Source: an uncultured Pelagibacteraceae bacterium (GTDB lineage: Bacteria; Pseudomonadota; Alphaproteobacteria; Pelagibacterales; Pelagibacteraceae). From it: a stretch of 64,000 nucleotides of DNA. A model generated the notes under the pieces. That model worked only from the letters and a program-made list of their open reading frames with translations, did no database searches and was not told where the DNA came from. The position numbers and the translations under genes were made by a program. The stretch's first letter is position 1. Each line of letters begins with the position of its first letter. This document shows positions 1 to 39,141 of this stretch, in pieces. The stretch is taken from the NCBI GenBank assembly GCA_902523895.1, contig CABZAZ010000001.1:62001-126000 (forward strand). The letters are read 5' to 3'.

Positions 1-428
1 CTAAACTAATACTACCTAAGATAAGTGCAAACCTTGAATTAAGAAAATCGCAAATACAAGAAAATATTGAGGCAGCAGAAAAACAGAGAGAAAGTAGTGA
101 AGCCAAGCTTAAAGAGTACGATGATATTATTTCAAAAAGTAAATTAGAAGCTAATAACATTTTTAAAGAAGCTAGAGAAAATGTGCTCAAAGAAATAAAT
201 GCGAAAAAAGAAACTTTAGATAAACAAATTGATGAGGAAATAAAGAAAGTTGAGCAAGAGATAGATTTACTAAGAAAAGGTGCTTCAGAGAAAATTAATA
301 AAATTGCAATCGAAACTACTTCAGAGTTACTATTGAAATTAATCGGTACAGAAGTTAATAATAGTAGCATTTCCGCGATTGTTGATGATTTATCTAAAAG
401 AAACGGGGATAAATATTATGGCAATTGA
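1..428 (+). CDS. atpF': F0F1 ATP synthase subunit b' (5' end outside window)
   Basis: Partial gene. The reading frame is already open at base 3 and gives 141 residues before the TGA stop. The visible part is an almost continuous, charged alpha-helix rich in Glu and Lys, as expected for the cytoplasmic stalk of a b-type subunit; its membrane helix must lie upstream. A second b-type gene follows directly, which is the b'/b pair typical of alphaproteobacteria, so I read this one as b'. The stop overlaps the start of the next gene by 11 bases, implying translational coupling. The internal ATG/GTG codons near 180 are not starts, because the heptad-like helix runs unbroken through them. The b/b' assignment rests on order and composition only. 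Confidence 0.85.
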   Translation, partial: KLILPKISANLELRKSQIQENIEAAEKQRESSEAKLKEYDDIISKSKLEANNIFKEARENVLKEINAKKETLDKQIDEEIKKVEQEIDLLRKGASEKINKIAIETTSELLLKLIGTEVNNSSISAIVDDLSKRNGDKYYGN

Positions 429-915
429 TGCAACATTTTGGGTAGCTGTATCGTTTATTATTTTCTTTGGAGGCTTAATATATCTTAAGGTTCCACAAAA
501 AATAAACGAAATACTAAATAAATTAATTTCAGATATCAAAAATGAGATTGATGAAAGTGAAAAGCTTAGAACAGAAGCTAAAACTTTATTGGATAATGCT
601 CAAAAAAAACTCGATACAGCTCAATCAGTTAGTAAGGAAATATTGGCACAAGCGAAAAATGACAGTGATAATCTTATTATTGAATTAAACGATAAATTTC
701 ATAAATCTTCAGAAATTAAAAAAAATTCAACAGAAAATAAGATTAATCAAATGAAAGACGCGGCAATAAAAGAAATAAAAGATGCTTCAATTAAAGTTGC
801 GGTAGACTCAGTTAAAAAGATAATTACAACATCGGTTGATAAGTCTAAGCTTGATAACTTGTTTCAAAAAAATTTGGATGAAACAAAAGAAGAGTTAAAA
901 AAAATCAACTCATAA
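418..915 (+). CDS. atpF: F0F1 ATP synthase subunit b
   Basis: 165 residues. It forms part of the peripheral stalk that joins the membrane proton channel to the F1 head of ATP synthase. A single hydrophobic helix at about residues 5-23 (around FWVAVSFIIFFGGLIYL) is followed by a long charged amphipathic helix to the C-terminus, the standard b-subunit plan. I start it at the ATG at 418, 11 bases inside the previous gene. The ATG at 379 would only add 13 residues that duplicate coding sequence of the upstream gene in another frame and would put a tail before the membrane anchor. It ends the ATP synthase operon; 40 bases later the carotenoid operon starts on the same strand. Confidence 0.93.
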   Translation: MAIDATFWVAVSFIIFFGGLIYLKVPQKINEILNKLISDIKNEIDESEKLRTEAKTLLDNAQKKLDTAQSVSKEILAQAKNDSDNLIIELNDKFHKSSEIKKNSTENKINQMKDAAIKEIKDASIKVAVDSVKKIITTSVDKSKLDNLFQKNLDETKEELKKINS

Positions 916-955
916 TACTCTTACAATTTTACAAAAAAGACTATAAATTATATAA

Positions 956-2416
956 ATGAATTCCATTGTTATAGGTTCAGGATTTGGAGGAATAGCTGCA
1001 GCTTTACGTCTTAAAGCTAAAGGGCATAAAGTTACTTTAATCGAAAAACATCGAGATCTTGGAGGGAGAGCTAGAGTATTTCAAAAAAATGGCTTCATTT
1101 ACGATGGTGGACCAACGGTAATTACTGCTCCATATTTGATAAATGAATTATTTGAATTATTTCAAAAAAAACCAGAAGATTATATTAAACTCACTCCACT
1201 AAAAGTTTGGTATCAATTCATTTTCGAAGATAAATCAAAATTTAATTACTCTGGGGACGAGCTAGAGATGAAAAAACAAATAAAAGAGATAAATGAAAAA
1301 GATGTTAAGGGTTACGAAAAATTAGTCAATTTTACAAAAAAAATTTTTGATAAAGGTTTCACGGAGCTTGCTGATGTACCCTTTGATAAACCATTTGTAA
1401 TGATGCAACAATTGCCAGCATTACTAAAACTAAAAAGTTATAAATCTGTTTATTCTTTAGTCTCCTCATATATAGAAAATGAAAAATTAAGGAGAATGCT
1501 TAGTATGCACCCATTATTAGTTGGGGGAAATCCTTTTACTACAACTTCAATTTATGGATTAATCTTATACCTTGAAAAAAAATGGGGTATTCATTACTCA
1601 ATGGGTGGAACAGGAAATATAATCAAAGGTTTTGAAAAATTAATGGATGAAGTCGGGATTAAAATAATTAAAGGTCACGAAGTTACCAAAATTATTTCAA
1701 ACAAAAAAAAAATTACCAGTATCCAATTAGATGATCAAACAATAATAGAGTCTAGCAATGTAATTTGTAATGCTGATCCTCCTGCTGTTTACGAGAAAAT
1801 GTTAAATGGGAATACAAGTAATTCATTTCTTTTTAGATGGAAAAAAAACCGAATGGAATATTCAATGGGATTATTTGTCTATTACTTTGGTACCAAAAAA
1901 AAATACAATAACGTTGAACACCATACTATTAAGTTTGGAAACAAATATAAAGAACATCTAGATGACATTTTCAATAACAAAAAATTGAACGACGATATTA
2001 GTTATTATCTTCACAGACCCTCTGCAACCGATAAAACTATGGCTCCCGAAGGTAACGATTGCTTTTATGTTTTAGTCCCAGTGCCAAATAATCAATCAAA
2101 AATTGATTGGTCTGTTGAGGGAGAAAAAATGAAAAATTTGGTTATTGATAAAATGCAAAATGATTTAATGCCAGATCTCAAAAAAAATATTGTAGAAGAT
2201 TTTTATTTAACACCTGATTACTTTGAAAAAGATTTAAATACAAAATATGGTTCAGGTTTTTCAATCCAACCAAAATTTTCTCAATCTGCATATTTTAGAT
2301 TTCACAATAAGTCTGAGATATACAAAGGGCTTTATTTTGTTGGTGCAGGAACCCATCCTGGAGCAGGTGTACCTGGAGTACTTTCGTCAGCAAAGGTATT
2401 AGAAAAGGTTTTATGA
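956..2416 (+). CDS. crtI: Phytoene desaturase
   Basis: 486 residues, normal for CrtI (about 490-510). It introduces double bonds into phytoene to give lycopene, at the membrane, with FAD. The N-terminus carries the dinucleotide-binding motif GSGFGG at residues 7-12, followed by an acidic residue at the end of the second strand (TLIEKH) and GGRARV. The C-terminus has the typical GLYFVGAGTHPGAGVPG segment at about 458-474, which closes the FAD site. The start lies 40 bases after atpF in a short AT-rich gap (TATAAATTATATAA just before the ATG). It is the first gene of crtI-crtB-crtY-blh; its stop and the crtB start overlap as ATGA. The number of desaturation steps cannot be read from sequence; the lycopene cyclase downstream makes four-step activity likely. 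Confidence 0.96.
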   Translation: MNSIVIGSGFGGIAAALRLKAKGHKVTLIEKHRDLGGRARVFQKNGFIYDGGPTVITAPYLINELFELFQKKPEDYIKLTPLKVWYQFIFEDKSKFNYSGDELEMKKQIKEINEKDVKGYEKLVNFTKKIFDKGFTELADVPFDKPFVMMQQLPALLKLKSYKSVYSLVSSYIENEKLRRMLSMHPLLVGGNPFTTTSIYGLILYLEKKWGIHYSMGGTGNIIKGFEKLMDEVGIKIIKGHEVTKIISNKKKITSIQLDDQTIIESSNVICNADPPAVYEKMLNGNTSNSFLFRWKKNRMEYSMGLFVYYFGTKKKYNNVEHHTIKFGNKYKEHLDDIFNNKKLNDDISYYLHRPSATDKTMAPEGNDCFYVLVPVPNNQSKIDWSVEGEKMKNLVIDKMQNDLMPDLKKNIVEDFYLTPDYFEKDLNTKYGSGFSIQPKFSQSAYFRFHNKSEIYKGLYFVGAGTHPGAGVPGVLSSAKVLEKVL

Positions 2417-3267
2417 TGTCTGATAAAAATTACTTATCAGTTTATGCAAAATCTTTTAATTGGGCAGGTTTTTTTTTACCTAAAAAAACATATAAAAAAT
2501 GTTCTGCATTGTATGATTTTTGTAGAGTTGCTGACAATATTGCAGACGATGAAGAAAAATTAGAAGTTAAAGAAATTAAATTCAAACAATTTAAAAAAGA
2601 TTTTGTTCAAAAGAATTTTGATAATCAAATTGTTAAAAATATGTGGGACCTTATTGATGAATTTAAAATTTCAGTAAAAATTATCGAAGATCTATTAGAC
2701 GGTATAAATTCAGATATAAAAGATAAGGTGATATTAAATTCAAAAAAAGACCTTTTAATTTATTCTTACAGAGTGGCTGGGACTGTTGGTTTAATGATGG
2801 CAAAAATTTTAAAAGTTAATAAAAAAAGCTCACTTAAGTCAGCTATTGATCTCGGTATCGCAATGCAACTTACGAATATATCAAGAGATGTGATTGAAGA
2901 CTCAAAAATAAATAGATTTTATATAAATAAAAATTTTGAGGAAATTACATCGACTATAGATCTTGCAGATACCTTTTATAAGAATTCCTTTTATTCTATA
3001 AAAGACATTCCAATAAGTTTTAGATTTTCAATTTTAGTCGCAAGAAGGATCTACCGAAAAATAGGCTATAATATCCTAAATAAAAAAACGTTTGAAAATT
3101 ATAAAAATTCCGGAAAAATTTACGTCTCCAATATTGAAAAGAGTATAGAGACTATTTTTGCAATTTTTGATCTTATAAAGTTATCTCTCTTAAGTATCAA
3201 AGAAGATCAGATTCAACATGATCATTTTTTAATTAATGAGGAAATAAATCTAGATGAAAGATTTTGA
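2413..3267 (+). CDS. crtB: Phytoene synthase
   Basis: 284 residues. It joins two geranylgeranyl diphosphates head to head into phytoene, the first committed step to carotenoids. The two Asp-rich Mg-diphosphate motifs are present: DFCRVADNIAD at about 35-45 and NISRDVIED at about 155-163, as in trans-isoprenyl synthases of the squalene/phytoene type. The start at 2413 overlaps the crtI stop (ATGATG; the second ATG at 2416 is an equal candidate). The 3' end overlaps crtY by 14 bases. No geranylgeranyl diphosphate synthase gene lies in this window, so the C20 substrate must come from a gene elsewhere. Confidence 0.96.
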   Translation: MMSDKNYLSVYAKSFNWAGFFLPKKTYKKCSALYDFCRVADNIADDEEKLEVKEIKFKQFKKDFVQKNFDNQIVKNMWDLIDEFKISVKIIEDLLDGINSDIKDKVILNSKKDLLIYSYRVAGTVGLMMAKILKVNKKSSLKSAIDLGIAMQLTNISRDVIEDSKINRFYINKNFEEITSTIDLADTFYKNSFYSIKDIPISFRFSILVARRIYRKIGYNILNKKTFENYKNSGKIYVSNIEKSIETIFAIFDLIKLSLLSIKEDQIQHDHFLINEEINLDERF

Positions 3268-4321
3268 CTATGTCATTATTGGTGGCGGCTGTGCTGGTTT
3301 ATCTTTAGCATATGAATTGGAAATTCATGAAAAGCTTAAAGATAAAACTTTGGCGATCATAGAGCCAAGGGATGAATACAAAAGAGACAAAACTTGGTCT
3401 TTTTGGAAAGTAACATCTCACAACTTTGAGGATTGTGTAAAAAAAAATTGGGAAAATTTTTCAATTAATATTCCAAACAAAACTAACTATCTGGAGTGTA
3501 AAAGTTCTCCATATCAAAGTATTGACAGTGGTTTATTCTATGAAAAAATTAATAATAAGCTAAATAAAAATAAAAATATTTCCTACTTTAAAGATATCAG
3601 TGAAATTAGTTTAAAAAATTCTTTTATTTTTAATAGCGTACCATTTATTAAAAAAGATTATCGAAATCTTTGGCAACACTTTTGTGGAGTGGAAATCGAA
3701 ACTAAAAATAATTTTTTTGATGATGAAATTTTTAACCTTATGGATTTTGATTGTGATCAAAGAGAAAGTGTTCATTTTTTTTATACCTTACCCTACTCAA
3801 AAAATACTGCTTTAGTTGAAACCACTTGGTTGTCTAAAATTAATGACAATTCTCAAAAAGATTATGACAAACAGATAAAAGATTACATTGAAAATCATCT
3901 AAATTTGAAAGATTACAAGATAATTTATAAAGAGGAAGGGGCGATACCTTTATTTTACCCAATCGATAAAAATGAAAAAAATAAAATTAATATTGGAACT
4001 GCTGGTGGTATGACTAGATTAAGCACAGGTTATACTTTTCTTAATATTCAAGAACATAGTAAATATATTAGAGAAAATATTGAAAATATTGCTAATGTTA
4101 AAAAATATAAGATAAGCACCAAATATCAATTTTTAGATGAAATATTTTTAAGAGTTCTTGAAAAACATCCAGAAAAAATGTCCAATATATTCTTTAAAAT
4201 GTTTAAGGCTTCTCCAAAGACTGTTATAAAATTTTTGTCCAATAAAAGCAATTTTTTCGAGGATTTGTCTATTATTTTAAGAATGCCTAAATTGACTTTT
4301 ATTAAAGCATTATTTTATTAG
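3254..4321 (+). CDS. crtY: Lycopene beta-cyclase (CrtY type)
   Basis: 355 residues, slightly shorter than the usual 380 or so. It closes the ionone rings at both ends of lycopene to give beta-carotene. An N-terminal FAD/NAD-binding motif IIGGGCAGLSLA (about 8-19) is followed by the cyclase signature around KTWSFWKV (about 48-55). A Pro-rich loop (EEGAIPLFYP) and a glycine-rich segment (GTAGGMTRLSTGYTF) lie in the second half, as in bacterial CrtY. The start is inside the end of crtB (14-base overlap), so the two genes are probably translationally coupled. Blh follows 12 bases downstream. Position between phytoene synthase and the carotene-cleaving enzyme supports the call independently. Confidence 0.94.
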   Translation: MKDFDYVIIGGGCAGLSLAYELEIHEKLKDKTLAIIEPRDEYKRDKTWSFWKVTSHNFEDCVKKNWENFSINIPNKTNYLECKSSPYQSIDSGLFYEKINNKLNKNKNISYFKDISEISLKNSFIFNSVPFIKKDYRNLWQHFCGVEIETKNNFFDDEIFNLMDFDCDQRESVHFFYTLPYSKNTALVETTWLSKINDNSQKDYDKQIKDYIENHLNLKDYKIIYKEEGAIPLFYPIDKNEKNKINIGTAGGMTRLSTGYTFLNIQEHSKYIRENIENIANVKKYKISTKYQFLDEIFLRVLEKHPEKMSNIFFKMFKASPKTVIKFLSNKSNFFEDLSIILRMPKLTFIKALFY

Positions 4322-4333
4322 TAGAATTTTAAA

Positions 4334-5269
4334 ATGAATAACAGATCAAAAAAAATAAATTTCAATCATTCTTTCATTTTTTTTTTAGTTTGTAATATTT
4401 TTTCATTGATAGCTTTTAAGTTTAAAACTTTTGCAATTTCACCATTTATTTGTTTGTTATTAATTTTAAGTATCGGTATATCTCATGGATCACTTGACAA
4501 TTTAAAAGGAAGAAAACTTTTTCAAATCTTTAAAGTTAAAAAATTTTATATTTTTTACTTGGCATATATTTTAATAGCCATCATAGTTATAATTTTATGG
4601 ATACTTATACCATATGTTTCTTTAATCATTTTTTTAATGGTTGCCTCATATCATTTTGGAAAAGAAGACACTCAATTTTTAATAGTTGAAAACTCTTATT
4701 ACAATCAATTTTTATTTTTGTTAAAAGGTTCTTTAATTGTTTTTGCACCAATGTATTTCCATTTCGAAGAGACAATATCAATATTCAAATTGCTGTTTAT
4801 TGAAAATGAAAATTTCTATAATTTTTTAGATTTAATAGAGTCAAAAAAGATATTGTTATATTGTATTATTCTATCAACTTTAGCAAATATTCTACTATTT
4901 ACAAAAAATTTTGAGCTAAAGAAATTCACAATATTTTTAGATTATTTTTCAATTATAATAATAAATTATTATTTTTCTCCATTAGTAGCTTTTACAATTT
5001 ATTTCTGCTTTTTACACTCTGTAAGACATAGTATCTCATTAGTGTCTGAATTAGACAGAGATGACCTCGGTAATGGATTTAAAATCTTTATAAAAAAGGC
5101 TTTACCACTAACAATTATTACAGCTATTTTTTGTGCAATTGGTCTTTATTTACTAAATAATACTTACAATTTCGAAAGTTCAATTCTTAAAATTATATTT
5201 ATAGGTTTGGCGTCTTTGACCTTTCCACATATATTGCTTGAGTATTTGATTGAAAAAAATGAAAAATAA
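4334..5269 (+). CDS. blh: Beta-carotene 15,15'-dioxygenase, Brp/Blh family
   Basis: 311 residues of mostly hydrophobic, multi-pass membrane protein. It cleaves beta-carotene centrally to two retinals, the chromophore of proteorhodopsin. The four His positions expected as iron ligands in this family are visible: H51 in GISHGSLDN, H107 in SYHFGKEDT, H228/H232 in FLHSVRHS and H299 in FPHILLEY. It is the last gene of the crt cluster and overlaps the following ispH. No opsin gene is in the window, so retinal use by a rhodopsin is inferred from what Blh does elsewhere in marine bacteria. The gene is very AT-rich, like its neighbours, with no sign of foreign composition. Confidence 0.94.
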   Translation: MNNRSKKINFNHSFIFFLVCNIFSLIAFKFKTFAISPFICLLLILSIGISHGSLDNLKGRKLFQIFKVKKFYIFYLAYILIAIIVIILWILIPYVSLIIFLMVASYHFGKEDTQFLIVENSYYNQFLFLLKGSLIVFAPMYFHFEETISIFKLLFIENENFYNFLDLIESKKILLYCIILSTLANILLFTKNFELKKFTIFLDYFSIIIINYYFSPLVAFTIYFCFLHSVRHSISLVSELDRDDLGNGFKIFIKKALPLTIITAIFCAIGLYLLNNTYNFESSILKIIFIGLASLTFPHILLEYLIEKNEK

Positions 5270-6203
5270 ACATTTGAAAATATTACTTTCTGCACCAAGA
5301 GGTTTTTGTGCGGGTGTTGAGAGAGCTATAGAAATTGTAGAAAAATCAATCAAAAAATTTGGTGCTCCAGTATATGTTCGCCATGAAATTGTGCATAATA
5401 AATATGTTGTAGACGATTTAAAAAATAAGGGTGCCATCTTTGTTGAGGAGCTTGAGGAGATAGAAGATAGATCAAGGCCGGTTATTTTTTCTGCACATGG
5501 CGTTCCAAAAAAAATACCGAAAGATGCTAAAAACTATAACATGACTTATATAGATGCTACATGTCCATTGGTGTCAAAAGTGCATAGAGCAGCTGAAAAT
5601 TTACATAAAGCCGGGTATCATTTAATTTTGATAGGACATCAAAATCACCCTGAAGTAATTGGTACCATGGGTCAATTACCAGAAGGATCAATTGATCTTG
5701 TTCAAAATGAGGATGAGGCTAAAAAATATAAACCTCAAAACAACAAAAAAATTTCTTATGTAACCCAAACAACGCTATCTGTAGATGATACAAAAGATAT
5801 AATTCAAATCTTAAAAGAAAGATTTCCTAATATAAAAGAACCCATGAAAGAAGATATTTGTTACGCCACAACAAATAGACAATTGGCTGTAAAAAATATT
5901 GCAAAAAAATGTGATTTATTTTTTGTAATTGGTAGTAGAAATTCGTCTAATTCTGTTAGATTAGTAGAAGTTGCAAAAAAATCTGGCTGCTCTAACTCGC
6001 TATTAATTCATTCACAGAGTGAAATACCATTCGATTTAATTAAAAATTCTCATACAATTGGAATTTCTTCTGGAGCTTCTGCACCTGAAATTTTAGTCGA
6101 TAACTTTATAAATGAGTTAAAAAATAAATTTATAGTAAGTATAGACGAAATAGAAATAATTAAAGAAAACGTTGTTTTCAAAGCACCGAAAAATTTAAAC
6201 TAA
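5259..6203 (+). CDS. ispH: 4-hydroxy-3-methylbut-2-enyl diphosphate reductase
   Basis: 314 residues from the ATG at 5259; a TTG at 5250 would add three. It is the last enzyme of the MEP pathway, a [4Fe-4S] reductase making IPP and DMAPP. The cluster cysteines are C17 (RGFCAGV), C102 (DATCPLV) and C201 (EDICYATTN); the substrate-site region HPEVIG (about 130-135) and the SSNSVRL segment are also present. The start overlaps the blh stop, so ispH is read as the distal gene of the retinal operon. That is coherent, because its products feed crtB through the missing crtE. It is equally the first gene of the ispH-thrB-rnhA order common in alphaproteobacteria. Confidence 0.97.
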   Translation: MKNKHLKILLSAPRGFCAGVERAIEIVEKSIKKFGAPVYVRHEIVHNKYVVDDLKNKGAIFVEELEEIEDRSRPVIFSAHGVPKKIPKDAKNYNMTYIDATCPLVSKVHRAAENLHKAGYHLILIGHQNHPEVIGTMGQLPEGSIDLVQNEDEAKKYKPQNNKKISYVTQTTLSVDDTKDIIQILKERFPNIKEPMKEDICYATTNRQLAVKNIAKKCDLFFVIGSRNSSNSVRLVEVAKKSGCSNSLLIHSQSEIPFDLIKNSHTIGISSGASAPEILVDNFINELKNKFIVSIDEIEIIKENVVFKAPKNLN

Positions 6204-6204
6204 A

Positions 6205-7170
6205 ATGGCTGTTTACACGAAAATTAGTAAAAAAGATATTTCTTATATTAATAGAAAATTTGATATAGAAAAAATTTTAGAATTTAAAGGTATAAAACAA
6301 GGAATTGAAAATACAAACTATTTACTAAAATCAAAGAATAAAAAATTTATACTAACAATTTTCGAAAAAAGAGTATCAAAAAAAGAATTGCCTTTTTTTA
6401 TGAGTTTGATGGATAAATTGAATAAATCAAAAATAAATTGCCCGAAACCACAAACAAAAAAAGGTGGTGGGTATTTAATTAATTTAAAAAATAAAGCTGC
6501 ATGCATAGTTTCTTTTCTTAGTGGAAAAGATAAAAAATCACTTAATTTTAAAAACTGTTATGACATTGGCAAAATGATTGCTGAAATGCACCAATCTACA
6601 AAAAAAATGAATCTTACTAGAAAAAACTCTATGGGTGTTAGAAATCTAAATCCATTACTAAAAAGTATAAAATTTAAGTCAAAAAAATTTACTAATGTAG
6701 AAAAATTTTTAAAAAATAATTTTAAAGATATTAAAACGAAATGGCCTAAAAATTTACCGAACGGGGTAATTCATGGAGATTTATTTATCGATAATATCTT
6801 TTTTAAAAATAATAGATTATCAGGGGTAATCGATTTTTATTTTGCAGCTAATGACTATTTTATGTATGAGATCGCAATTTGTGTGAATGCAATATGTTTT
6901 GATAAAAAAAAATCAAAGTTTGTGTTGAACAAAAAGAAAGTTAAAAATTTAATAAAAGGTTATGAAAAAATTAGGAAAATCTCAGTTAAAGAAAGGAAAT
7001 CATTAAATATTTTATGTCGTGGTGCTGCAATTAGATATTTTATGACTAGACTTTATGACTATTCAAATACTCCTAAGACAGCATTAATTAAAATAAAAGA
7101 TCCAAGAGAATATTATCAAAAGCTTATAATACACAATAATTTAAGAACTTATAAAGATTATTTGAATTAA
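6205..7170 (+). CDS. thrB: Homoserine kinase (aminoglycoside phosphotransferase-like fold)
   Basis: 321 residues. It phosphorylates homoserine, the step before threonine synthase. This is not the GHMP-type kinase of E. coli but the APH-fold type found in many alphaproteobacteria: the catalytic loop is VIHGDLFIDNIFF (H190, D192, N197) and the metal-binding Asp is D210 in GVIDFYFA. The N-terminal GIENTNYLL strand is also characteristic. It starts one base after ispH ends and overlaps rnhA by one base. APH-fold kinases include choline and fructosamine kinases; the ispH-thrB-rnhA context decides for homoserine. The partner gene thrC lies only 1 kb away but is broken (see 8072-9351). Confidence 0.88.
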   Translation: MAVYTKISKKDISYINRKFDIEKILEFKGIKQGIENTNYLLKSKNKKFILTIFEKRVSKKELPFFMSLMDKLNKSKINCPKPQTKKGGGYLINLKNKAACIVSFLSGKDKKSLNFKNCYDIGKMIAEMHQSTKKMNLTRKNSMGVRNLNPLLKSIKFKSKKFTNVEKFLKNNFKDIKTKWPKNLPNGVIHGDLFIDNIFFKNNRLSGVIDFYFAANDYFMYEIAICVNAICFDKKKSKFVLNKKKVKNLIKGYEKIRKISVKERKSLNILCRGAAIRYFMTRLYDYSNTPKTALIKIKDPREYYQKLIIHNNLRTYKDYLN

Positions 7171-8075: not shown

Positions 8076-9351
8076 ATCGAATTCATTACATATTTTTTAA
8101 CTTTTTCAATATCATTTGAAAGAAGTTCAAATTTTTCTTTTCTGTCATAAACATATTTAAGACTTTCTGGTAGATTTTCAGTTTTTGATATTGCATCTTC
8201 TATTGCCTTTGGAAATTTACACGGATGTGCAGTTGATAATACAACGCAATTTTTTTCTAATCCTAATTTTCTAACAGCACCAATACCTACTGCGGTATGC
8301 GGATCAACTACCATCTGATGTTCATCATTGATAGTTTTTATCATTTCAACAGTTTCGTTTTCATCAAGCATCTCAGATACAAAATTCTTTTTGATTTTAT
8401 CTAAATCATTTTTATCAATTTTATAGGTATTATTTTTTATTTCAGCCATTACACCTTTTGTAACTTCTGAGTTACAATCTTTTACATCATATAAAAGCCT
8501 CTCAAAATTACTTGCTATTTGTATATCCATACTTGGAGTATTTGTTTCCTCAACTTTCTTTTGACAATAGTCACCGTCTGATATGGCTCTATGAAGTATG
8601 TCATTTTTATTTGTAGCTACGATTAGCTTATCAATTGGAAGGCCTAATTTTTTTGCTAAGTATCCAGCATAAATATCACCAAAGTTTCCTGTTGGAACAG
8701 AAAAGGATAAAGGCTGACCATTTCCAACTTTAAAGAAAGCGTAAAAATAATACACCGATTGAGCAATAATTCTTGCCCAATTAATTGAATTTACCCCTGA
8801 CATATTAATCGCTTTTGAAAATTTTTCGTCATTAAACATTGCTTTTACTAGATTTTGACAGTCATCAAAGTTGCCCTCTACTGCAATATTAAACACGTTA
8901 TTCTCCTCATGTATTGTCATTAACCTTCTTTGTACAGGTGAAATTTTATTATTTGGGTGTAATACAAAAACATTTAAATTGCTTTTTCCTTTTAAAGCAT
9001 CGATTGCATTGCGATATCTTTAAAAGCAAGTGTGGGTCCATGAAATAGTTCTAATACTTTTAAATTTCCGAGATTAGAAATTTTAACAACATCGTCAGAT
9101 CTAAAATTTGAATATGATTTTGAAATCATAGAGATTAGATCATCTTTAGACATGAAATCTCCAATAAATGGATAAATTATTTCAGCAGCTAAATCATTGT
9201 AACTAAGATTTTTTAGATTATGTAATTCTTCCTTTTGGAATTGTTTAATTGATTTAGGAACAAAAAGTCCTCCATCGTCCGCCAATCCTTTGAGGAAAAC
9301 ATCTTTAAAAGAAAAGTTTTTTTGATTATTTCTTGTACTAATGTAATTCAT
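8072..9351 (-). pseudogene. thrC: Threonine synthase broken by an internal deletion and frameshift
   Basis: Threonine synthase turns phosphohomoserine into threonine with PLP. The 5' part (8992-9351, 119 codons) is normal, starts with MNYISTR and includes the PLP-lysine motif TLAFKDIAMQ, then meets TAA four codons later. The rest is open in another frame: from about 9007 it reads AIDALKGKSNLNVFVLHP and continues to a normal C-terminus at 8072. The stretch that should join them, including the phosphate-binding SGDTGSAA loop, is absent. From family length (about 465) roughly 30 residues are missing. The frames differ by one, so the deletion is 3n+1 bases (about 91-97), apparently at a short GCA repeat. 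No single frameshift can restore the protein. Both parts otherwise look unmutated, so the event is recent or a sequencing/assembly artefact. Confidence 0.88.
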
Positions 9352-10005
9352 TTAATAATTCTTTTTTCTAAAATATAAATATAGCAAAAGAATTGAAAGC
9401 GCTAATGAAAACCAAGTAATAGCGTATTTTTGATGATTATTAGAAATATTTGCAGTAATTTTTTTTGGTCTGGGTAACTGATAATTTCCATCTAAATAAA
9501 TAATATATTTAGAAAAATTTTTACCTGTAAATTTTAAAATATCTTCTCTATTTAAACTAAACCAGTAATTTTCATCTAAATCATTATCTGGCTTAAAGAT
9601 ATTTTTTCTACCTTGTAATCTTAGGGTTCCGATAATATTTTTTTGATCAAATACGTTTATTTCTTGAGTACCTTTTTTTTCAAATGGTATCCAACCTCTA
9701 TTTATCAAAAAATTTTCATCCTCAATCGTAATTGGATTTATTACTTCAAATCCAGGTGTACCAGAGTCATTTAAATTGTATAAATAAATTTGCTTATCAA
9801 AATCTATAGACCCTGAAGTTTTAATTTTTAGAAAATTTTCTTTGTTTGATTGAGCTAATTCCACCGGAGGATTTTTTAATGAATTTTCAATTTCTAAAAT
9901 TAAATTATTTTTCCAATTTAGACGGATAATTTGCCACGTACCTAGTCCAATAAAAACAAAAATAAAGAAAATTATAAAGACGGAAAATAAAAACTTATGT
10001 TTCAA
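9352..10005 (-). CDS. surf1: SURF1-family cytochrome oxidase assembly protein
   Basis: 217 residues. SURF1 (Shy1) is a membrane factor that helps insert heme a into cytochrome oxidase subunit I. The topology is typical: an N-terminal helix (about 4-24) with the family signature GLGTWQIIRLNWK, a central extracytoplasmic domain with INRGWIPFEKKG, and a C-terminal helix (ITWFSLALSILLLYLYF). The N-terminal helix is followed by the basic/aromatic pattern expected of the family. The gene ends one base before the thrC start codon and begins eight bases after ctaE, as the seventh gene of the oxidase operon. Confidence 0.93.
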   Translation of the reverse strand: MKHKFLFSVFIIFFIFVFIGLGTWQIIRLNWKNNLILEIENSLKNPPVELAQSNKENFLKIKTSGSIDFDKQIYLYNLNDSGTPGFEVINPITIEDENFLINRGWIPFEKKGTQEINVFDQKNIIGTLRLQGRKNIFKPDNDLDENYWFSLNREDILKFTGKNFSKYIIYLDGNYQLPRPKKITANISNNHQKYAITWFSLALSILLLYLYFRKKNY

Positions 10006-10013
10006 GGATCAAA

Positions 10014-10802
10014 TTAACTTCCCCAAATATATATTGCAGCAAACAAAAATAACCAAACAACGTCAACAAAATGCCAGTACCATGCAGCTGCTTCAAAGCC
10101 AAAATGATGGTCTTTGGTAAAATGACCTAATTTTCCTCTCCATAAACATACTGCTAAAAAAATTGTTCCAACTATAACATGGAAGCCATGAAAGCCTGTT
10201 GCCATGTAAAAAACAGAACCATAAATATGATCTGAAAAAGTAAATGTAGCATGATGATATTCGTATGCTTGAAGTGCTGTAAAAAATGCTCCAAGAATTA
10301 CCGTTAGCACTAATCCTTGTATAAAACCTTTTCTGTCACCTTCTAATAATGAATGGTGAGACCAAGTGACTGTTGTACCTGATAATAGTAAAACTAATGT
10401 GTTAATCAAAGGTATATCCCAAGGATCGAAAGTCACAATATCTTTAGGTGGCCACACGTTTCCTACAAAATCATTTGGGAAAAGACTAACGTCAAAGTAA
10501 GCCCAAAACCAAGCAACAAAAAACATTACCTCAGATGCGATAAATAAAGTCATTCCATAACGGTGATGAATTTGGACTACTGGGGTATGATGACCTTGAT
10601 GTTCTGCTTCAATGACCACATCTCTGAACCACATATATGCGCCATAAATTAAAAGAGCTAATCCAAGATACATTCCCCATGAAACATCTGAATGCATGTA
10701 ATACACAGCACCTATAGCTAATACTAAGCAAGAAAACGAAACGTAAATAGGCCAAGGACTTGGATCCACTAAGTGATAATCATGTTTTTTTTCAGCTGAC
10801 AT
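10014..10802 (-). CDS. ctaE: Cytochrome c oxidase subunit III
   Basis: 262 residues, seven predicted membrane helices. Subunit III of the aa3-type oxidase stabilises the complex and the proton-uptake site; it has no redox centre. Recognisable family segments are HDYHLVDPSPWP at the N-terminus, a conserved membrane Glu (FIASEVMFFVAWFWAYF) and the C-terminal AAAWYWHFVDVVWLFLF. The order ctaG-ctaE-surf1 matches alphaproteobacterial oxidase operons. It begins ten bases downstream of ctaG. Confidence 0.98.
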   Translation of the reverse strand: MSAEKKHDYHLVDPSPWPIYVSFSCLVLAIGAVYYMHSDVSWGMYLGLALLIYGAYMWFRDVVIEAEHQGHHTPVVQIHHRYGMTLFIASEVMFFVAWFWAYFDVSLFPNDFVGNVWPPKDIVTFDPWDIPLINTLVLLLSGTTVTWSHHSLLEGDRKGFIQGLVLTVILGAFFTALQAYEYHHATFTFSDHIYGSVFYMATGFHGFHVIVGTIFLAVCLWRGKLGHFTKDHHFGFEAAAWYWHFVDVVWLFLFAAIYIWGS

Positions 10803-10811
10803 TTTTTTGAA

Positions 10812-11345
10812 TTATGATTGTTTATAATAATCTGTCGAGAAAAAAGTATACGACATAGTTACATCTTCTAGGTTTTTAACACTTGGATCATTAATCATTT
10901 CAGGGTCTAGATAAAAAGTCATTACATAGGTGGCTTTTTCTCCTGCTTTTAGTTCTTGTTTTTCAAAACAAAAACAGCCAAGTTTACTATAATATTTTCC
11001 AAAACTTGCTGGTGATACGTTAAAACTTGCTACACCGGCAGTTGGTTCGCTACTATAATTTTCAACTTCAAACTCTATTTTGTTAACTTGGCCAACTTTC
11101 ACATCTATAACATTCGATTTTGCCTTAAAATCCCAAGGTAGATTATTCACGTTAGTATCAAATCTAACACTCACTACTTTATTTAGAACTATTTTAGGAG
11201 CACTGTTTGAAATTTGAGTAGTACCTCCAAAACCCGTTACTCTACAAAATAAATCATATAAAGGTACTGCAGCGTAGGATAGACCTAACATAAATACAAA
11301 TATCCCTATAAGAACTAATGGTGTAAGATTTTTTTTTTGTATCAT
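10812..11345 (-). CDS. ctaG: Cytochrome c oxidase assembly protein CtaG (Cox11)
   Basis: 177 residues. A membrane-anchored copper chaperone that loads CuB into subunit I. One N-terminal membrane helix (about 9-29) is followed by an Ig-like periplasmic domain. The copper-binding pair is in GCFCFEKQ (C124 and C126), and C34 lies just after the helix in YDLFCRVTGFGG, all as in Cox11. The start overlaps the stop of the small coxF-like gene (ATGA). Confidence 0.97.
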   Translation of the reverse strand: MIQKKNLTPLVLIGIFVFMLGLSYAAVPLYDLFCRVTGFGGTTQISNSAPKIVLNKVVSVRFDTNVNNLPWDFKAKSNVIDVKVGQVNKIEFEVENYSSEPTAGVASFNVSPASFGKYYSKLGCFCFEKQELKAGEKATYVMTFYLDPEMINDPSVKNLEDVTMSYTFFSTDYYKQS

Positions 11346-11467
11346 ATTGCTCTATCAAAAACTCCAGTGTTATATAATGTAAATAAAAAAAGAAAAATCA
11401 TGAAGGCAATAATCGCTAATGCCGTCTTGATATTTTTTTTCTTAGTTTTTTTATCTGGTATAATCAT
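11342..11467 (-). CDS. coxF: Small CoxF-like membrane protein of the oxidase operon
   Basis: 41 residues; it begins MIIPDKKTKKKN and ends NTGVFDRAI. A basic cytoplasmic head is followed by one hydrophobic helix (about 14-33) and a short tail. Its start overlaps the ctaB stop (ATGA, 11464-11467) and its stop overlaps the ctaG start (ATGA, 11342-11345), so it exactly fills the gap between the two assembly genes. Alphaproteobacterial oxidase operons commonly carry a small single-helix gene (coxF) here. The match is by position, size and topology, not detailed sequence. Its function is not established; a role in oxidase assembly is inferred. Confidence 0.82.
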   Translation of the reverse strand: MIIPDKKTKKKNIKTALAIIAFMIFLFLFTLYNTGVFDRAI

Positions 11468-12378
11468 AAAATCTTATCTATCAGAAAAAGCACAAAAACC
11501 AAAAATAAATATAAAATAGAATAGCCAAATATTGATTTAGCTTTTTTTGCACTAAATTTATTTTTTTTAAATTTATAAAGATCGAAACATAGATAATTGT
11601 AATAAATAGTTAATAACAATGATGGAATAAGAAAAACAAGTCCTACAAAGTTGATTACATATGGAAAAATTATAACTGGAAGCATTATCAAAGAGTAGAC
11701 AAAAATATTTACTTTAGTGCTCTCTATCCCATTTGTTAGAGGAAGCATGGGTATATTAGCTTTTTTATAATCTTCTGATTTATATAAGCTTAATGCCCAA
11801 AAATGTGATGGAGTCCAAAAGAAAATAATTAAAAAAAATACAAGAGGTTCAAGAGATAAAGATCCTGTAGCAATAGTCCAGCCTATAACAGGAGGAAGAG
11901 CTCCAGCCGCACCACCAATAACAATATTCTGTGAGGTTCTTTTTTTTAGCCAAATTGTATAAATTAAAACATAAAATATAATAGTAAAAAGTAATATTCC
12001 TGCAGATACTCGATTTGTAAAATAATCTAGTGCAACTACTGAAATAAGCGATAAGGTTATTCCAAATATAAGAGCCTGATTTTTATTAACTTTACCTGTT
12101 GGTATTGGTCTTAGGCAAGTTCTACTCATTAAAGCATCAAGATCAGACTCATACCACATGTTTAATGCTCCTGCTGCTCCTGCGCCCATTGAAACTAGTA
12201 ATATTCCAATTATTGCATCTTGAGTTGAAACCATAGTTGGGGCTGTTAATAATCCAACCGCACAAGTAAATATCACAAGCGACATTACTCTTGGTTTCAT
12301 CAATTTAAATAATTCAGAAAAATTTAGTAAGTCTTCTTGAGACAGATTATCTTTTTTTAATTTTGAACTACTCATCAA
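11464..12378 (-). CDS. ctaB: Protoheme IX farnesyltransferase
   Basis: 304 residues, about nine membrane helices (UbiA superfamily). It adds a farnesyl group to heme b to make heme o, the precursor of heme a for the oxidase. The first Asp-rich prenyl-diphosphate motif is NMWYESDLDALMSRT, followed by the R-P-I-P-T-G pattern typical of CtaB/CyoE; the second region lies around YKSEDYKKANIPMLPL. The start is MMSSS or the next Met. It sits 17 bases downstream of ctaD. Farnesyl diphosphate comes from the same isoprenoid pool that IspH feeds. Confidence 0.97.
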   Translation of the reverse strand: MMSSSKLKKDNLSQEDLLNFSELFKLMKPRVMSLVIFTCAVGLLTAPTMVSTQDAIIGILLVSMGAGAAGALNMWYESDLDALMSRTCLRPIPTGKVNKNQALIFGITLSLISVVALDYFTNRVSAGILLFTIIFYVLIYTIWLKKRTSQNIVIGGAAGALPPVIGWTIATGSLSLEPLVFFLIIFFWTPSHFWALSLYKSEDYKKANIPMLPLTNGIESTKVNIFVYSLIMLPVIIFPYVINFVGLVFLIPSLLLTIYYNYLCFDLYKFKKNKFSAKKAKSIFGYSILYLFLVFVLFLIDKIL

Positions 12379-12395
12379 TTTTAAAGCTTTTATTC

Positions 12396-14845
<2,450 letters not shown>

Positions 14846-33334: not shown

Positions 33335-35014
<1,680 letters not shown>

Positions 35015-35064
35015 TACGTTTCCATTTAGAGAACACTCTAAATACATACACTAAACAAAATTAG

Positions 35065-35096
35065 AACCCTCGGAATGAAAGTTTCGGGGGTCTTTT
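35065..35096 (+). terminator. Rho-independent terminator of groESL
   Basis: A GC-rich stem: ACCCTCG pairs with CGGGGGT, extended by AA/TT around a short loop, followed by TCTTTT. It is 50 bases after the groEL stop and directly before the convergent MORN gene end. One of the few classical terminators in the window. Confidence 0.8.
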
Positions 35097-35100
35097 ATAA

Positions 35101-36117
35101 TTATTTAATTTTTTTCTTAATTTCATTAAATTCTTTTTTTGCTTGTTTTATCTTGTTTTTTAATTCAATTAGTTTTTCATTTTTATCTGCTAAATTAATG
35201 TCTTTGTTAAATGTGTTAACATTTTCCATCAATTTTACAAAATGATTATTCTTTATTTCGAAAAATTTGTTTAAATCAAACATTAATTTTATAATATCTT
35301 TTTTTGCCTCATATTTTAAATCAGAAAATTTTTTAGTAAAAATATCAAGATTAAAATAGGTTTCATAAATTTGATAAGTTAAATCTGATAACACTTTGTC
35401 CATTTTTTTTGGTTTAATACTTTCCCATTCTTCTATTTTATTAAATATAACCATAGGAGTTTTCGTCCCCTTATCCAAATCAAATTCAAATAGACCACTT
35501 GGTGTATCTTGTGATAAATTACCATCATCATCTTTATTAATTTCTATCATTAATTTGTATCCTTGACCGTTATAAAAATATCCAATTAATTCTGTATTAC
35601 AAATTTTTTGATTTCCTTTGTCAAATTTTTTGAATGTTGCAAATCCATTTTGAAGATTATGAGTAAATGTACCTTCATAACAACACAAAAATTCCCAGTC
35701 TGTTATTAATTTTTTTCCTAAACCATGATAAGAATCTGCAAACCATTCACCAGCGTAGTAAGGTATGTTAAATGGGTGATGAGCACTACCTCCTCCACTA
35801 AAGTAAGTATATTTTCCCATACCATGTCTTAAACCACTATCAAATTGACCATAGAACATATCTTCTGACGGTGCAAATATCATTGCCCCATTTCCATTTG
35901 GCATAATGTCTTTATTATATTCTCCCGTATATGCTCCATTAAAGTAAGGAAATCCCTCTTTCTTTTTATTTTTTATTGTCTTTTTTTCTAATTGTGGGAT
36001 TTTTTTATTTACAATTTCGTCTAACTTTTTATCTATCTCTAATTTTTTATATTTAAATTCTTGAACAACTCTTAAATAAAGTGCTTGAAGTTGCTTTTCA
36101 GACAATGGTTCTGCCAT
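35101..36117 (-). CDS. MORN-repeat protein
   Basis: 338 residues. After a charged N-terminal helix (about 1-52) come four MORN-like repeats at about 64-85, 88-110, 121-143 and 147-168, recognisable as YxGEYxxxxxxGxG: YTGEYNKDIMPNGNGAM, FYGQFDSGLRHGMGKY, YAGEWFADSYHGLGKK and YEGTFTHNLQNGFA. The C-terminal half (about 215-338) is Lys- and Glu-rich and probably helical, ending in a coiled coil. There is no signal peptide. MORN repeats mediate protein or lipid contacts; the job here is unknown. It is transcribed towards groEL from an unusual 150-base leader (36118-36274). Confidence 0.85.
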   Translation of the reverse strand: MAEPLSEKQLQALYLRVVQEFKYKKLEIDKKLDEIVNKKIPQLEKKTIKNKKKEGFPYFNGAYTGEYNKDIMPNGNGAMIFAPSEDMFYGQFDSGLRHGMGKYTYFSGGGSAHHPFNIPYYAGEWFADSYHGLGKKLITDWEFLCCYEGTFTHNLQNGFATFKKFDKGNQKICNTELIGYFYNGQGYKLMIEINKDDDGNLSQDTPSGLFEFDLDKGTKTPMVIFNKIEEWESIKPKKMDKVLSDLTYQIYETYFNLDIFTKKFSDLKYEAKKDIIKLMFDLNKFFEIKNNHFVKLMENVNTFNKDINLADKNEKLIELKNKIKQAKKEFNEIKKKIK

Positions 36118-36274
36118 ATGAGTAAACTAGCAATAAAGACAAACAAAGTCACCTTCTCATTTCCTTCCTGTTTCGTCTGATTCTGCAATGAACTTTGCAA
36201 TGAACTGCTTAAATAAGTGAGTATTGGCGTACTAAGAATGCGAATGTAATCCCCACTAATCTCAAACAAAAATT
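36118..36274 (-). other. GC-elevated leader with possible RNA structure, no gene
   Basis: Intergenic stretch upstream of the MORN gene. From 36151 to 36260, 42 of 110 bases are G or C (38%), well above the neighbouring spacers. Read on the minus strand, AGTGGGGATT (36247-36256) can pair with AATACTCACT (36218-36227) through nine of ten positions, with G-U pairs that exist only on that strand. An 11-base direct repeat TGCAATGAACT lies at 36184-36194 and 36196-36206. An open frame across it gives 65 residues that resemble nothing I know. It could be a structured leader, a small RNA or a decayed remnant. Confidence 0.4.
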
Positions 36275-36307
36275 CAAAAAGGGCAGTTTTTACTGCCCTT
36301 TTTTTTT
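36275..36307 (-). terminator. Terminator after the FkbM methyltransferase gene
   Basis: A perfect hairpin, GGGCAGT pairing with ACTGCCC around a TTTT loop, flanked by A and T runs on both sides, so it can work in either direction. On the minus strand it lies 24 bases after the stop of the methyltransferase gene (36331) and separates it from the MORN leader. Confidence 0.85.
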
Positions 36308-36330
36308 GGCTAATTTGAATACCTTTTCAA

Positions 36331-37029
36331 TTATTTTTTGATGATAATATTATTTAAATACTTGTAGTGTTTAGTGCTTATAATCCACAAAAACAATTTT
36401 GAAATAAATATATTCCAGTAAATTTTTTTCTTTCTAAACAAATAATCAAAATTTTTGTGATCATATCCATACCCACAATACGAATAGCCTTTTTTTGATA
36501 GATATTTTATCAAATCTTTTTTTTGTAATTTTTTTAAATGTAAATATTCTATTGATATATTTTCAATATTATACTTTTCTAAATCGATAGATTTTAATAC
36601 ATCTAAATCTATTCCCTCAAGATCAATGCTCAGATAATCAATATTAGCTTGGTCTATTTTTCTAAAAAAATCATTTATCTCAATAGCTTTTATAGTAAAA
36701 TTTTTTATCTGTTCACCTGGATAATGTCTTTCAACATGTTCTTTTTTAATTGACGTTACCTGGAAATGAGGAGCATCTTTCTCGGTATAATAGAATTTAA
36801 TTTGATCGGTTTTTTCAAGGGAAATACCTAAATTAAAAATTTCTACATTTCGAAAATTTATGTATGACTCTTTTAATTTTTCTATATTAAAAGGATTAGC
36901 CTCAACACAGAATATTTTATCATTAGAATTTGAGTTTTTTTTAATAAATTCTGTAAAGCCACACCTAAAATTCTGTCTACTATCAAGGTCACCTGCTCCT
37001 GATCCTAAATGGACAAAAACTTTTCCCAT
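36331..37029 (-). CDS. FkbM-type SAM-dependent methyltransferase
   Basis: 232 residues from ATG 37029 (MGKVFVHLGSGAGD). The SAM-binding Rossmann start VFVHLGSGAGDLD is at residues 4-16, FCVEANPFN is motif II, and YLSIDLEGIDLDVLKSID with ENISIEY is the FkbM signature core. Family members methylate sugars or other small acceptors; the target is unknown. An in-frame ATG at 37182 would add 51 residues of hydrophobic sequence lying antisense to the small gene at 37112-37228, so I prefer 37029. It stands alone with its own terminator, which suggests an accessory gene for surface glycan modification. Confidence 0.82.
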   Translation of the reverse strand: MGKVFVHLGSGAGDLDSRQNFRCGFTEFIKKNSNSNDKIFCVEANPFNIEKLKESYINFRNVEIFNLGISLEKTDQIKFYYTEKDAPHFQVTSIKKEHVERHYPGEQIKNFTIKAIEINDFFRKIDQANIDYLSIDLEGIDLDVLKSIDLEKYNIENISIEYLHLKKLQKKDLIKYLSKKGYSYCGYGYDHKNFDYLFRKKKIYWNIFISKLFLWIISTKHYKYLNNIIIKK

Positions 37030-37111
37030 TTGTAAAGATTTATCGAAAATAAATAAGAAATCTATTAATATTTCATTTAAGTAACATTTATTTTGTGTAT
37101 AAATTAATTTT

Positions 37112-37228
37112 ATGTCTAAAAGATATAGTGGAAAATCTTTTAAAGATTCTAGCGTTAATAAAAAACCAAAACTTAGCCTCAAAGAAAAGAGAAGTTTAAA
37201 AAGAGAAAAGGCAAAAAAAACAAAATAA
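37112..37228 (+). CDS. Small very basic protein upstream of typA
   Basis: 38 residues. It starts MSKRYSGKSFKDSS and ends REKAKKTK: 15 Lys and 5 Arg by eye against few acidic residues, so strongly cationic, with no hydrophobic segment. The reading frame has a sensible start after an AT-rich TATAAATTAATTTT stretch and a TAA stop. It faces typA in the same direction with 86 bases between. Composition suggests nucleic-acid or ribosome contact, but that is inference. It is short enough to be a chance ORF; the low stop density of Lys-rich AAA codons argues for caution. Confidence 0.55.
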   Translation: MSKRYSGKSFKDSSVNKKPKLSLKEKRSLKREKAKKTK

Positions 37229-37314: not shown

Positions 37315-39141
37315 ATGAGCAAAGATATTAGAAACATCACTATAATCGCACACGTTGATCACGGCAAAACTACATTAATTGATAATCTAATGAAACAAAG
37401 CGGCTCATTTAGGGAAAATGAAGTTGTTGACGAAAGACTAATGGATTCAGGCGAGCTTGAAAAAGAGAGAGGTATTACAATTTTAGCAAAACCTGCATCT
37501 ATCAATTGGAAAGATTCAAGAATAAATATTATTGATACCCCGGGTCACCGTGATTTTGCTGCAGAAGTTGAAAGAGTTTTAAGCATGGCAGATGGCGCAT
37601 TACTTTTAATTGATTCTGCAGAAGGAGTTATGCCTCAAACAAAATTCGTTTTATCTAAAGCTCTAAAACAGGGATTAAAACCAATTGTAGTAATCAATAA
37701 ATTGGACAAATCAGATCAAAGAGCCAATGAAGTTTTAGATGAAACTTTTGATTTATTTGTAAGTTTAGATGCAAATGAAGAACAGCTAGACTTTCCTGTT
37801 TTATATGCGAGTGGAAGATCTGGTTGGGCTGATAAAGAAATTGATGGTCCAAGAGAAAATTTAAATCCTTTATTAGATCAAATTATTGATCATGTAAAAC
37901 CTGCTGAACTTGATAAAACAAAACCCTTTGCAATGTTGTCTACTCTTCTTTACGCAGACAATTTCTTAGGGAGAAGCTTAGTCGGAAGAATTGCACAAGG
38001 AACTGCAAAAGCTAATCAATCAATCAAGGCAATAAATTTAAAGGGTGAAAAAGTTGATGAAGGAAGACTTACTAAAATTTTTAGATATGAGGGTACAAAA
38101 AAAGTACCAATCGAAATTGGTGAGGCGGGAGATATTGTAGTTGTTGCTGGCTTAGAAAAAGCAAATGTTGCTGACACAATTTGTGATCTTGAGGTAAATG
38201 ATCCTATTAAAGCTACTCCAATCGATCCACCAACAATGTCTATTACCATTACTGTAAACACATCTCCTCTTGCAGGAACTGAGGGTAAAAAACTTACAAG
38301 TACTCAGATAAGAGATAGATTAATTCAAGAAGCGCAGAATAATGTTGGAATTACTTTTACAGAAAATGAAGGTAACGATTCTTTTGTTGTAAGCGGTCGA
38401 GGTGAATTAATGCTAGAAATTTTACTAACTCAAATGAGAAGAGAAGGTTTTGAAATGACAGTTAGTCCCCCAAAAGTTCTCTATAAAAAAGATGAAAATG
38501 GTAAAAAACTTGAGCCAATAGAAGAAATAACTATGGATCTTGATGAGGAACATTCATCAAAAATTATTGACTCCATGAATAGAAGAAAAGGCAAGTTAAT
38601 AGAATTAAAAGACACTGGTAAAAATAAAAAAAGATTAATCTTTCATGCACCAACAAGAGGTTTAATGGGATACACAAGTCGGTTTCTAACACTTACAAAA
38701 GGCAATGGTGTAATTAACAGAATTTTTCATGCGTATGGACCATTTGAGGGTGAAATGGAAGGTAGAAGAAATGGTGCACTTATTTCAATGGAACAAGGAA
38801 AAGCAGTTGCATTTGCAATATTTAATTTGCAGGCTAGAGGTGAGATGTTTGTAACTCATAATGATCCTGTTTATCCAGGTATGATTGTGGGATTATCTCC
38901 TAAACCTGGAGATATGATTATTAATGTTATGAAGGGCAAAAAATTAACTAATATGAGAACACAAGGTACAGATGAAAATGTCGTTCTAACGCCGGTAAGA
39001 AAAATGTCCATCGCAGAACAATTAAGCATGTTAAATACTGATGAGGCTTTGGAAATCACTCCAGACTCTTGCAGATTGAGAAAAGCCATTCTCGATCCGC
39101 ACGAAAGAAAGAGAAGTGAAAAATCAGGCGCTGCAGCCTAA
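37315..39141 (+). CDS. typA: Ribosome-associated GTPase TypA/BipA
   Basis: 608 residues, translational GTPase of the EF-G class. G1 is AHVDHGKTTL (about 13-22), G3 is DTPGHRDF, G4 is NKLDKSD; the switch I region ERGITI is intact. Domains III and V follow, then the BipA-specific C-terminal domain. It acts in 50S assembly at low temperature and stress responses. Its TAA overlaps the TAG of the convergent gene by four bases (CTAA, 39138-39141). Confidence 0.98.
   Translation: MSKDIRNITIIAHVDHGKTTLIDNLMKQSGSFRENEVVDERLMDSGELEKERGITILAKPASINWKDSRINIIDTPGHRDFAAEVERVLSMADGALLLIDSAEGVMPQTKFVLSKALKQGLKPIVVINKLDKSDQRANEVLDETFDLFVSLDANEEQLDFPVLYASGRSGWADKEIDGPRENLNPLLDQIIDHVKPAELDKTKPFAMLSTLLYADNFLGRSLVGRIAQGTAKANQSIKAINLKGEKVDEGRLTKIFRYEGTKKVPIEIGEAGDIVVVAGLEKANVADTICDLEVNDPIKATPIDPPTMSITITVNTSPLAGTEGKKLTSTQIRDRLIQEAQNNVGITFTENEGNDSFVVSGRGELMLEILLTQMRREGFEMTVSPPKVLYKKDENGKKLEPIEEITMDLDEEHSSKIIDSMNRRKGKLIELKDTGKNKKRLIFHAPTRGLMGYTSRFLTLTKGNGVINRIFHAYGPFEGEMEGRRNGALISMEQGKAVAFAIFNLQARGEMFVTHNDPVYPGMIVGLSPKPGDMIINVMKGKKLTNMRTQGTDENVVLTPVRKMSIAEQLSMLNTDEALEITPDSCRLRKAILDPHERKRSEKSGAAA

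Follow-up and report, generated by a model that had tools for sequence, protein, structure and literature searches.

A displaced groEL 3' end beside a MORN-repeat gene in a Pelagibacteraceae bacterium: probable junction of a small integrative cassette

In a stretch of 64,000 nucleotides from an uncultured Pelagibacteraceae bacterium, analysed here at its full length (the window), a gene for a MORN-repeat protein lies between groEL and typA. Upstream of its start stands a segment (36118-36274) that an earlier description, made from the letters alone (the sequence-only reading), took for a new cis-regulatory RNA, a small RNA or the scar of an integrated element. Which of these is it, and how did the MORN gene come to lie there? 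On the comparisons described below, the segment is most probably an attR-like junction, left where a small integrative cassette of the non-autonomous kind entered the 3' end of groEL. The suggestion of a scar was thus right in essence: the segment forms the right-hand junction of an insertion at the groEL end.

A second groEL end behind the MORN gene

The end of groEL occurs twice in the window (Table 1), once on groEL itself, where it is followed by a new terminator, and once displaced by about 1.2 kb, behind the MORN gene. This displaced end, with its terminator (36242-36310), had been overlooked in the sequence-only reading. The insertion measures 1,235 bp and lies between two copies of a 9-base core, GAATGTAAT. 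Its breakpoints were located by alignment with a relative (L043) that has groEL, the same terminator and an FkbM gene, and is without this insertion. At the left breakpoint, 67 of 71 positions are identical through the core and 19 of 69 beyond it; at the right breakpoint, 11 of 60 are identical before the core and 65 of 67 from the core onward. The alignments place the switch within the 9 bases of the core, and a duplicated groEL end with so precise a switch is the signature of site-specific integration at the end of a gene. As in tyrosine-integrase islands, the target end is regenerated and the old end displaced. In 54 of 80 loci, groEL is immediately followed by sequence of the type found at 36242-36310 (last codons, stop and terminator). 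These 80 loci combine an even draw of genomes with loci fetched for their resemblance to the window; L127, L128 and L134, whose contigs equal those of L050, L037 and L035 in length, are excluded as apparent duplicates of them. The window's groEL itself ends in a different terminator. A DNA search matched the segment in 112 of 201 genomes (its own and 200 of the genus), and among the matches listed most span only about 36236-36307, which is the groEL end and terminator in these relatives.

Table 1. Features of the window from groEL to typA (positions are those of the 64,000-nucleotide stretch)
Feature	Position	Strand	Basis
groEL, target gene	33353..35014	+	ORF; groEL ends compared in 39 loci
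Left core copy GAATGTAAT, 9 bases, includes groEL stop codon	35007..35015	+	Identity break relative to L043
Left-end module, replacement groEL terminator, hairpin 35066-35091	35016..35100	+	Terminator scan; related copies
Cargo, 338-aa MORN-repeat protein, reads towards groEL	35101..36117	-	ORF; Pfam MORN; L131 homologue
Possible short leader frame, GTG start 36152, 26 codons; tentative	36072..36152	-	Start-codon offset across modules
Right-end module (the 'leader' of the sequence-only reading); cargo-side boundary approximate	36141..36241		25- and 20-copy alignments
Direct repeat copy 1, putative arm-type binding site	36184..36194	+	Alignment; repeat scan
Direct repeat copy 2, putative arm-type binding site	36196..36206	+	Alignment; repeat scan
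Right core copy GAATGTAAT	36242..36250	+	Identity to L043 resumes here
Displaced groEL 3' end and intrinsic terminator, hairpin 36276-36303	36242..36310	+	Search; terminator scan; L043 comparison
FkbM methyltransferase	36331..37182	-	Pfam; FkbM in same interval of L043, L034 and L050
typA, far flank of interval	37315..39141	+	ORF; 96-101 bp behind groEL in relatives

The right-end module and the case for an RNA

Several properties of the segment had first drawn attention to it. Its GC content is indeed raised, at 0.350 over 36118-36274 against 0.289 in the whole window, with 0.373 over 36142-36251 and 0.40 in the best 110 bases, but is not exceptional: of 90 sampled 'non-ORF' 110-mers, 22% come to 0.38 or more, and many of these lie in small genes below the ORF cut-off. 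The adjacent 11-base direct repeat TGCAATGAACT was confirmed as two exact copies, and this pair is the sole exact repeat of at least 11 bases at a spacing of 11-16 in the 64 kb. Shuffling in 500-base blocks gave a mean of 0.82 such repeats per window, and at least one in 32 of 60 shuffles, so that the pair by itself is not beyond chance; it owes its significance to its conservation in relatives, across 25 aligned copies.

The proposed minus-strand stem fared worse. On that strand the segment folds at -24.8 kcal/mol, more weakly than the shuffle average (z +1.39), and 185 of 200 shuffles fold equally well or better. On the plus strand, 36118-36310 gave a z of -1.88, with 8 of 200 shuffles as good, a value that has to be qualified because the stretch takes in the terminator hairpin at 36276-36303. 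This hairpin is the only inverted repeat reported by a scan of 36118-36320 and lies past the end of the segment. An RNA acting as cis-regulatory leader of the MORN gene, or as a small RNA, would sit well with a module placed directly upstream of cargo starts, and the plus-strand value, terminator included, leans the same way. Against it stand the minus-strand fold, the absence of any consensus pair in a minus-strand alignment of 20 copies, the lack of an Rfam family at gathering score, and the presence of the same module before unrelated genes. The covariation check that had been proposed, made on 25 aligned plus-strand copies, gave a single weak helix of 6 pairs with a covariation term of +0.1. 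The statement that no known riboswitch or tRNA fits was borne out at gathering thresholds, all loose Rfam matches to the segment falling below them (the best at 30.9 bits against 45); no tRNA or tmRNA gene was found in the window. Neither structure nor Rfam lends support to a small RNA. Both-strand folds, Rfam searches at gathering and loose thresholds and two folded alignments led us to reject RNA as the main explanation, and we regard it as very improbable. A transcript may arise from the right-end module, and the module may play a generic leader role for any cargo.

The module is present in other genomes of the genus and of the family, so that a lack of conservation beyond the one strain, named by the sequence-only reading as a refuting condition, does not hold. 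The window's copy and those of other junctions, 25 in all, can be aligned across about 90 bases, within which the tandem repeat, a block AAATAAGTGAGTATTGGCGTACTA and the core are largely conserved; these copies were picked among the matches, weak or partial ones (for example L050, L052, L053 and L054) and type 2 ends being omitted. Type 2 is a second family of right ends with repeats of type GTGATGAAGGA and a different spacer. With up to two mismatches allowed, 13 of 201 genomes have the type 1 pattern and 8 of 201 the type 2 pattern. These two pattern searches yielded 23 loci; the short flanks of 22 include groEL, typA or a terminator module of the groEL type, and one (L114) has the right-end module only. 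The window's 23-base tandem repeat was found, in exact form, on 9 stretches among 84,980 species genomes, all Pelagibacteraceae, and groEL or typA is on 8 of the 9, the exception being L131. Among 41 genomes drawn from the family, G225, from another genus, matches 84% over 103 bases of the module side, and the remaining matches lie mainly on the terminator side.

Relatives of the left-end module stand behind groEL (14 of the 80 loci) or inside arrays. A right-end module lies downstream in 10 of the 14 loci with the window-type groEL terminator and in 18 of the 66 others (p 0.004, in a partly selected set). No recognisable arm repeat was found at the left end of the window's cassette; in some loci, equally oriented repeats lie close to both ends, and none of the 80 has a module on the opposite strand. 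Arm motifs vary between families and sites, which argues for more than one recombinase. The right-end module adjoins the cargo start on its upstream side, whatever the gene. A start codon at 97-99 bases from the end of the core was seen in 17 of 19 modules (the L034 row of the 20-row alignment being omitted), the other 2 having none. The short leader frame that it opens forms one frame with the cargo in 4 modules, overlaps with the cargo frame in 10 and stops short of it in 3. The window's candidate frame overlaps the MORN start out of frame. Translation of the cargo might be coupled to a standard leader of this kind, through a pattern that is in part expected by chance; the leader frame stays tentative because overlap arises easily at such spacing.

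Varied cargo in the groEL-typA interval

Comparing the groEL-typA interval among relatives, as the sequence-only reading had proposed, revealed the 1,235-bp insertion and varied cargo at the same spot. Five relatives (L065, L066, L067, L068 and L071) are uninterrupted and have groEL, the terminator and typA with a gap of 96-101 bp. An even draw of 61 genomes yielded 47 groEL loci (from 46 genomes, G007 giving two; the matching genome G057, at a contig end, is not included). Thirty-one of these reach typA, with intervals of 96-5438 bp that divide into 13 of 96-294 bp and 18 of 650-5438 bp. A core with a following terminator occurs 9 times in 157,409 interval bases and is absent from 450,537 control bases; where no terminator was recognised, core strings were counted 5 times in the intervals and 12 times in the control. 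Other loci carry, on the same sequence signs, one junction or several: junctions are serial in L035, L036, L046, L129, L131 and L135, and L034 contains a gene-free unit of 128 bp from core to core. Unit sizes range from about 0.13 to 6.7 kb. The core string is absent from 11 of the 18 typA-reaching intervals of at least 650 bp, so the core signature cannot explain every inserted gene. In L056 and L062 a different series of genes follows groEL, and the ~14 kb covered contain no typA; part of the genus seems to have another gene order.

A Pfam scan of 45 interval proteins identified several proteins of restriction-modification, an anti-phage function: type I systems in L036, L055 and L060 (the last two also by PADLOC) and, in L040, a C5 methylase together with a HaeII-type endonuclease. 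The other cargo includes FkbM and other methyltransferases, O-antigen ligase, DUF2130, MORN and endonuclease/exonuclease proteins, together with HIT, HNH, DUF805 and DUF4116 families and many proteins without a family, and is mostly oriented towards groEL. All four restriction-modification loci bear type 2 GTGATGAAGGA ends, and the kind of cargo may go with the end family. The window's MORN protein has no PADLOC or NCBIfam match. A search of the genome contigs with this protein returned no relative, though the array L131, obtained by DNA, holds a homologue that is 62% identical.

Could the interval have been exchanged without any integration at the core? In homologous recombination, the modules and the groEL and typA flanks would serve as anchors by which whole intervals are swapped, the junctions being immobile relics of old integrations. 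The modules are conserved enough for anchoring, no recombinase gene was found in the loci and several inserted intervals have no core copy, all in keeping with such exchange. It leaves unexplained, however, why the groEL end is duplicated exactly at the 9-base core, as well as the serial units and the empty unit of 128 bp, and would account for the spread of the units, not for their origin. We consider it unlikely. Integration of a cassette at the groEL core, the reading we prefer, has points counted against it in turn: no recombinase gene was found at the loci searched, the left end of the window's cassette lacks a recognisable arm repeat, arm motifs vary between families and sites, many inserted intervals have no core copy, and the two end types have a limited spread (13 and 8 of 201 genomes).

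Recombinases, a second site and a model for the cassettes

Twelve integrase queries and their profile identified no recombinase among 2020 ORFs on 138 stretches, mostly groEL loci, in a search that recovered 8 of 8 known integrases as a control. The window's own assembly (79% complete) has a single PF00589 gene, on another contig, which encodes 317 aa. This gene (L137, 4660-5613) is set among glycosyltransferase genes. Homologues of its product, at 58-90% identity, are found in 32 of 46 other integrase-bearing stretches, some of which overlap, and PF00589 matches occur in 148 of the 201 genomes, including 26 of the 29 most complete. The protein scores far under the cut-offs for XerC, XerD and integron integrase, and its 8 matches to phage records are each below 30% identity. 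Serine resolvases (PF00239) were found in 0 of 10 genomes, with 10 of 14 positive in the control. No viral contig contained an exact pattern of either right end, of the terminator or of the repeats (diverged copies may escape such patterns), and the segment had no match among phage records. Passages of PMC2217521 name a probable phage integrase, SAR11_0551, in the hypervariable region HVR2.

Like integrons, the groEL loci have serial one-gene cassettes, with different genes in small units divided by a common, repeated recombination site, and a trans-acting recombinase is one possible reading of them. An integron cassette array would have attC sites, whose core-motif consensus is GTTRRRY and RYYYAAC. 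These motifs are absent from 36118-36310 and never occur together in any of the 25 copies; the minus strand has no foldable hairpin, the genome's own recombinase reaches 32 bits against the integron-integrase cut-off of 265, and the cargo is, unlike that of integrons, mostly directed towards the anchor gene. We find an integron hardly credible here.

A related repeat adjoins the tmRNA gene of the same genome. There (L136, C4:66000-85900, at 8078-13454) the tmRNA gene is followed by an array of small minus-strand genes, which is divided by copies of the tmRNA 3' tail (2 full and 2 partial) and by CATTGAAGT-type repeats; repeats like CATTGAAGTTTGCATTGAAGT accompany the tail copies. To judge from this arrangement, the region would be a second docking site in the genome, with a layout similar to that of the groEL site. 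The tmRNA tail was found in 47 of 61 genomes, and at least two copies (up to two mismatches) in 16 of the 47, some on different contigs. In another genome (L143, G160:C3:37000-48000, at 152-6494), an element of ~6.2 kb lies between copies of the tmRNA tail and encodes a tyrosine integrase of 343 aa and a DUF5906 protein; it is possibly a phage satellite. Integrase elements therefore do use the tmRNA site. No CAATGAAST- or TGATGAAG-type repeat pairs were found in L143, so this element is not shown to be a helper of the cassettes. Of ten stretches searched for repeats beside integrase genes, only L136 gave any.

The tmRNA site also bears on a target-specific Tn7-like transposon, for which the core would be a target-site duplication. 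A short duplicated core, repeats near both ends and a site behind a conserved gene would all suit such an element. The end repeats are direct, not inverted, across the 80 loci, no transposase family appeared among the 45 interval proteins scanned by Pfam (part of the cargo), and the tmRNA site is common to an integrase element; a Tn7-like origin is barely conceivable.

For the integrative cassette, we propose the following course. A circular cassette with a core, a terminator and arm sites would recombine with the core at the groEL end, through a tyrosine-type recombinase supplied in trans; the direct repeats would be arm-type sites and the groEL core the crossover region. groEL would be left intact because the cassette restores its last codons, stop and terminator, and the old groEL end would come to lie beyond cargo and arm module. 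The right-end module would then lie upstream of the cargo start, and may double as its 5' leader. Repeated integrations would build the arrays.

Several known systems resemble this arrangement. Passages of PMC7771536 and PMC10872708 describe additive genomic islands in Ca. Actinomarinales, with cassettes marked by direct repeats of tRNA ends, and the same type of cassette, again with tRNA-end repeats, in fGI-2 of Ca. Methylopumilus. The groEL loci share with them small cassettes in streamlined aquatic bacteria, variable genes at one fixed spot and, at the cassette ends, the directly repeated end of a conserved gene. Unlike the islands of those passages, they use groEL (and tmRNA) as the target and not a tRNA gene, and the displaced piece contains a stop codon and a terminator; the right-end modules with tandem repeats, defined here, are not described in the same passages. 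Islander islands, as presented in part of PMC4383910, likewise regenerate the target gene and leave a displaced fragment at the far end. They are typically made by integrases at tRNA or tmRNA genes, whereas the groEL units measure 0.13-6.7 kb and had no integrase in the loci searched. Tycheposons of Prochlorococcus and Methylophilaceae, as told in a passage of PMC10872708, are cargo elements of streamlined aquatic bacteria as well, tied to tyrosine recombinases, and span 4-200 kb at tRNA genes; the groEL units differ in being small, at groEL and in loci where no tyrosine recombinase was found. The groEL cassette site is a variant of additive genomic islands with new features.

In SAR11, four hypervariable regions were reported in 2007 (PMC2217521), in gene tables that do not contain groEL (SAR11_0162); passages of that paper report no attC sites in SAR11 and leave the mechanism of the hypervariable regions open. 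The main text of a study of SAR11 ecogenomics (PMC7318151) does not mention groEL. Among open-licence PMC titles and abstract openings, we found no description of a SAR11 groEL docking site or of groEL as attB.

A wider version of the proposal, which we hold to be doubtful, is that SAR11 practises an integron-like capture of genes in which attC hairpins play no part. A single XerD-like recombinase, retained by vertical descent, would serve several docking sites (groEL, tmRNA) in trans. The cassettes would bring a standard plug-in module that consists of arm sites, a start codon at a fixed place followed by a short leader suited to whatever cargo, and a terminator to replace that of the host gene.

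Few cells in the ocean are as abundant as SAR11 bacteria, whose genomes are tiny. A docking site with recognisable ends makes the gain and exchange of genes in these streamlined cells, restriction systems included, directly testable, and the end modules offer a sequence handle by which such cassettes can be found in single-cell genomes and metagenomes.
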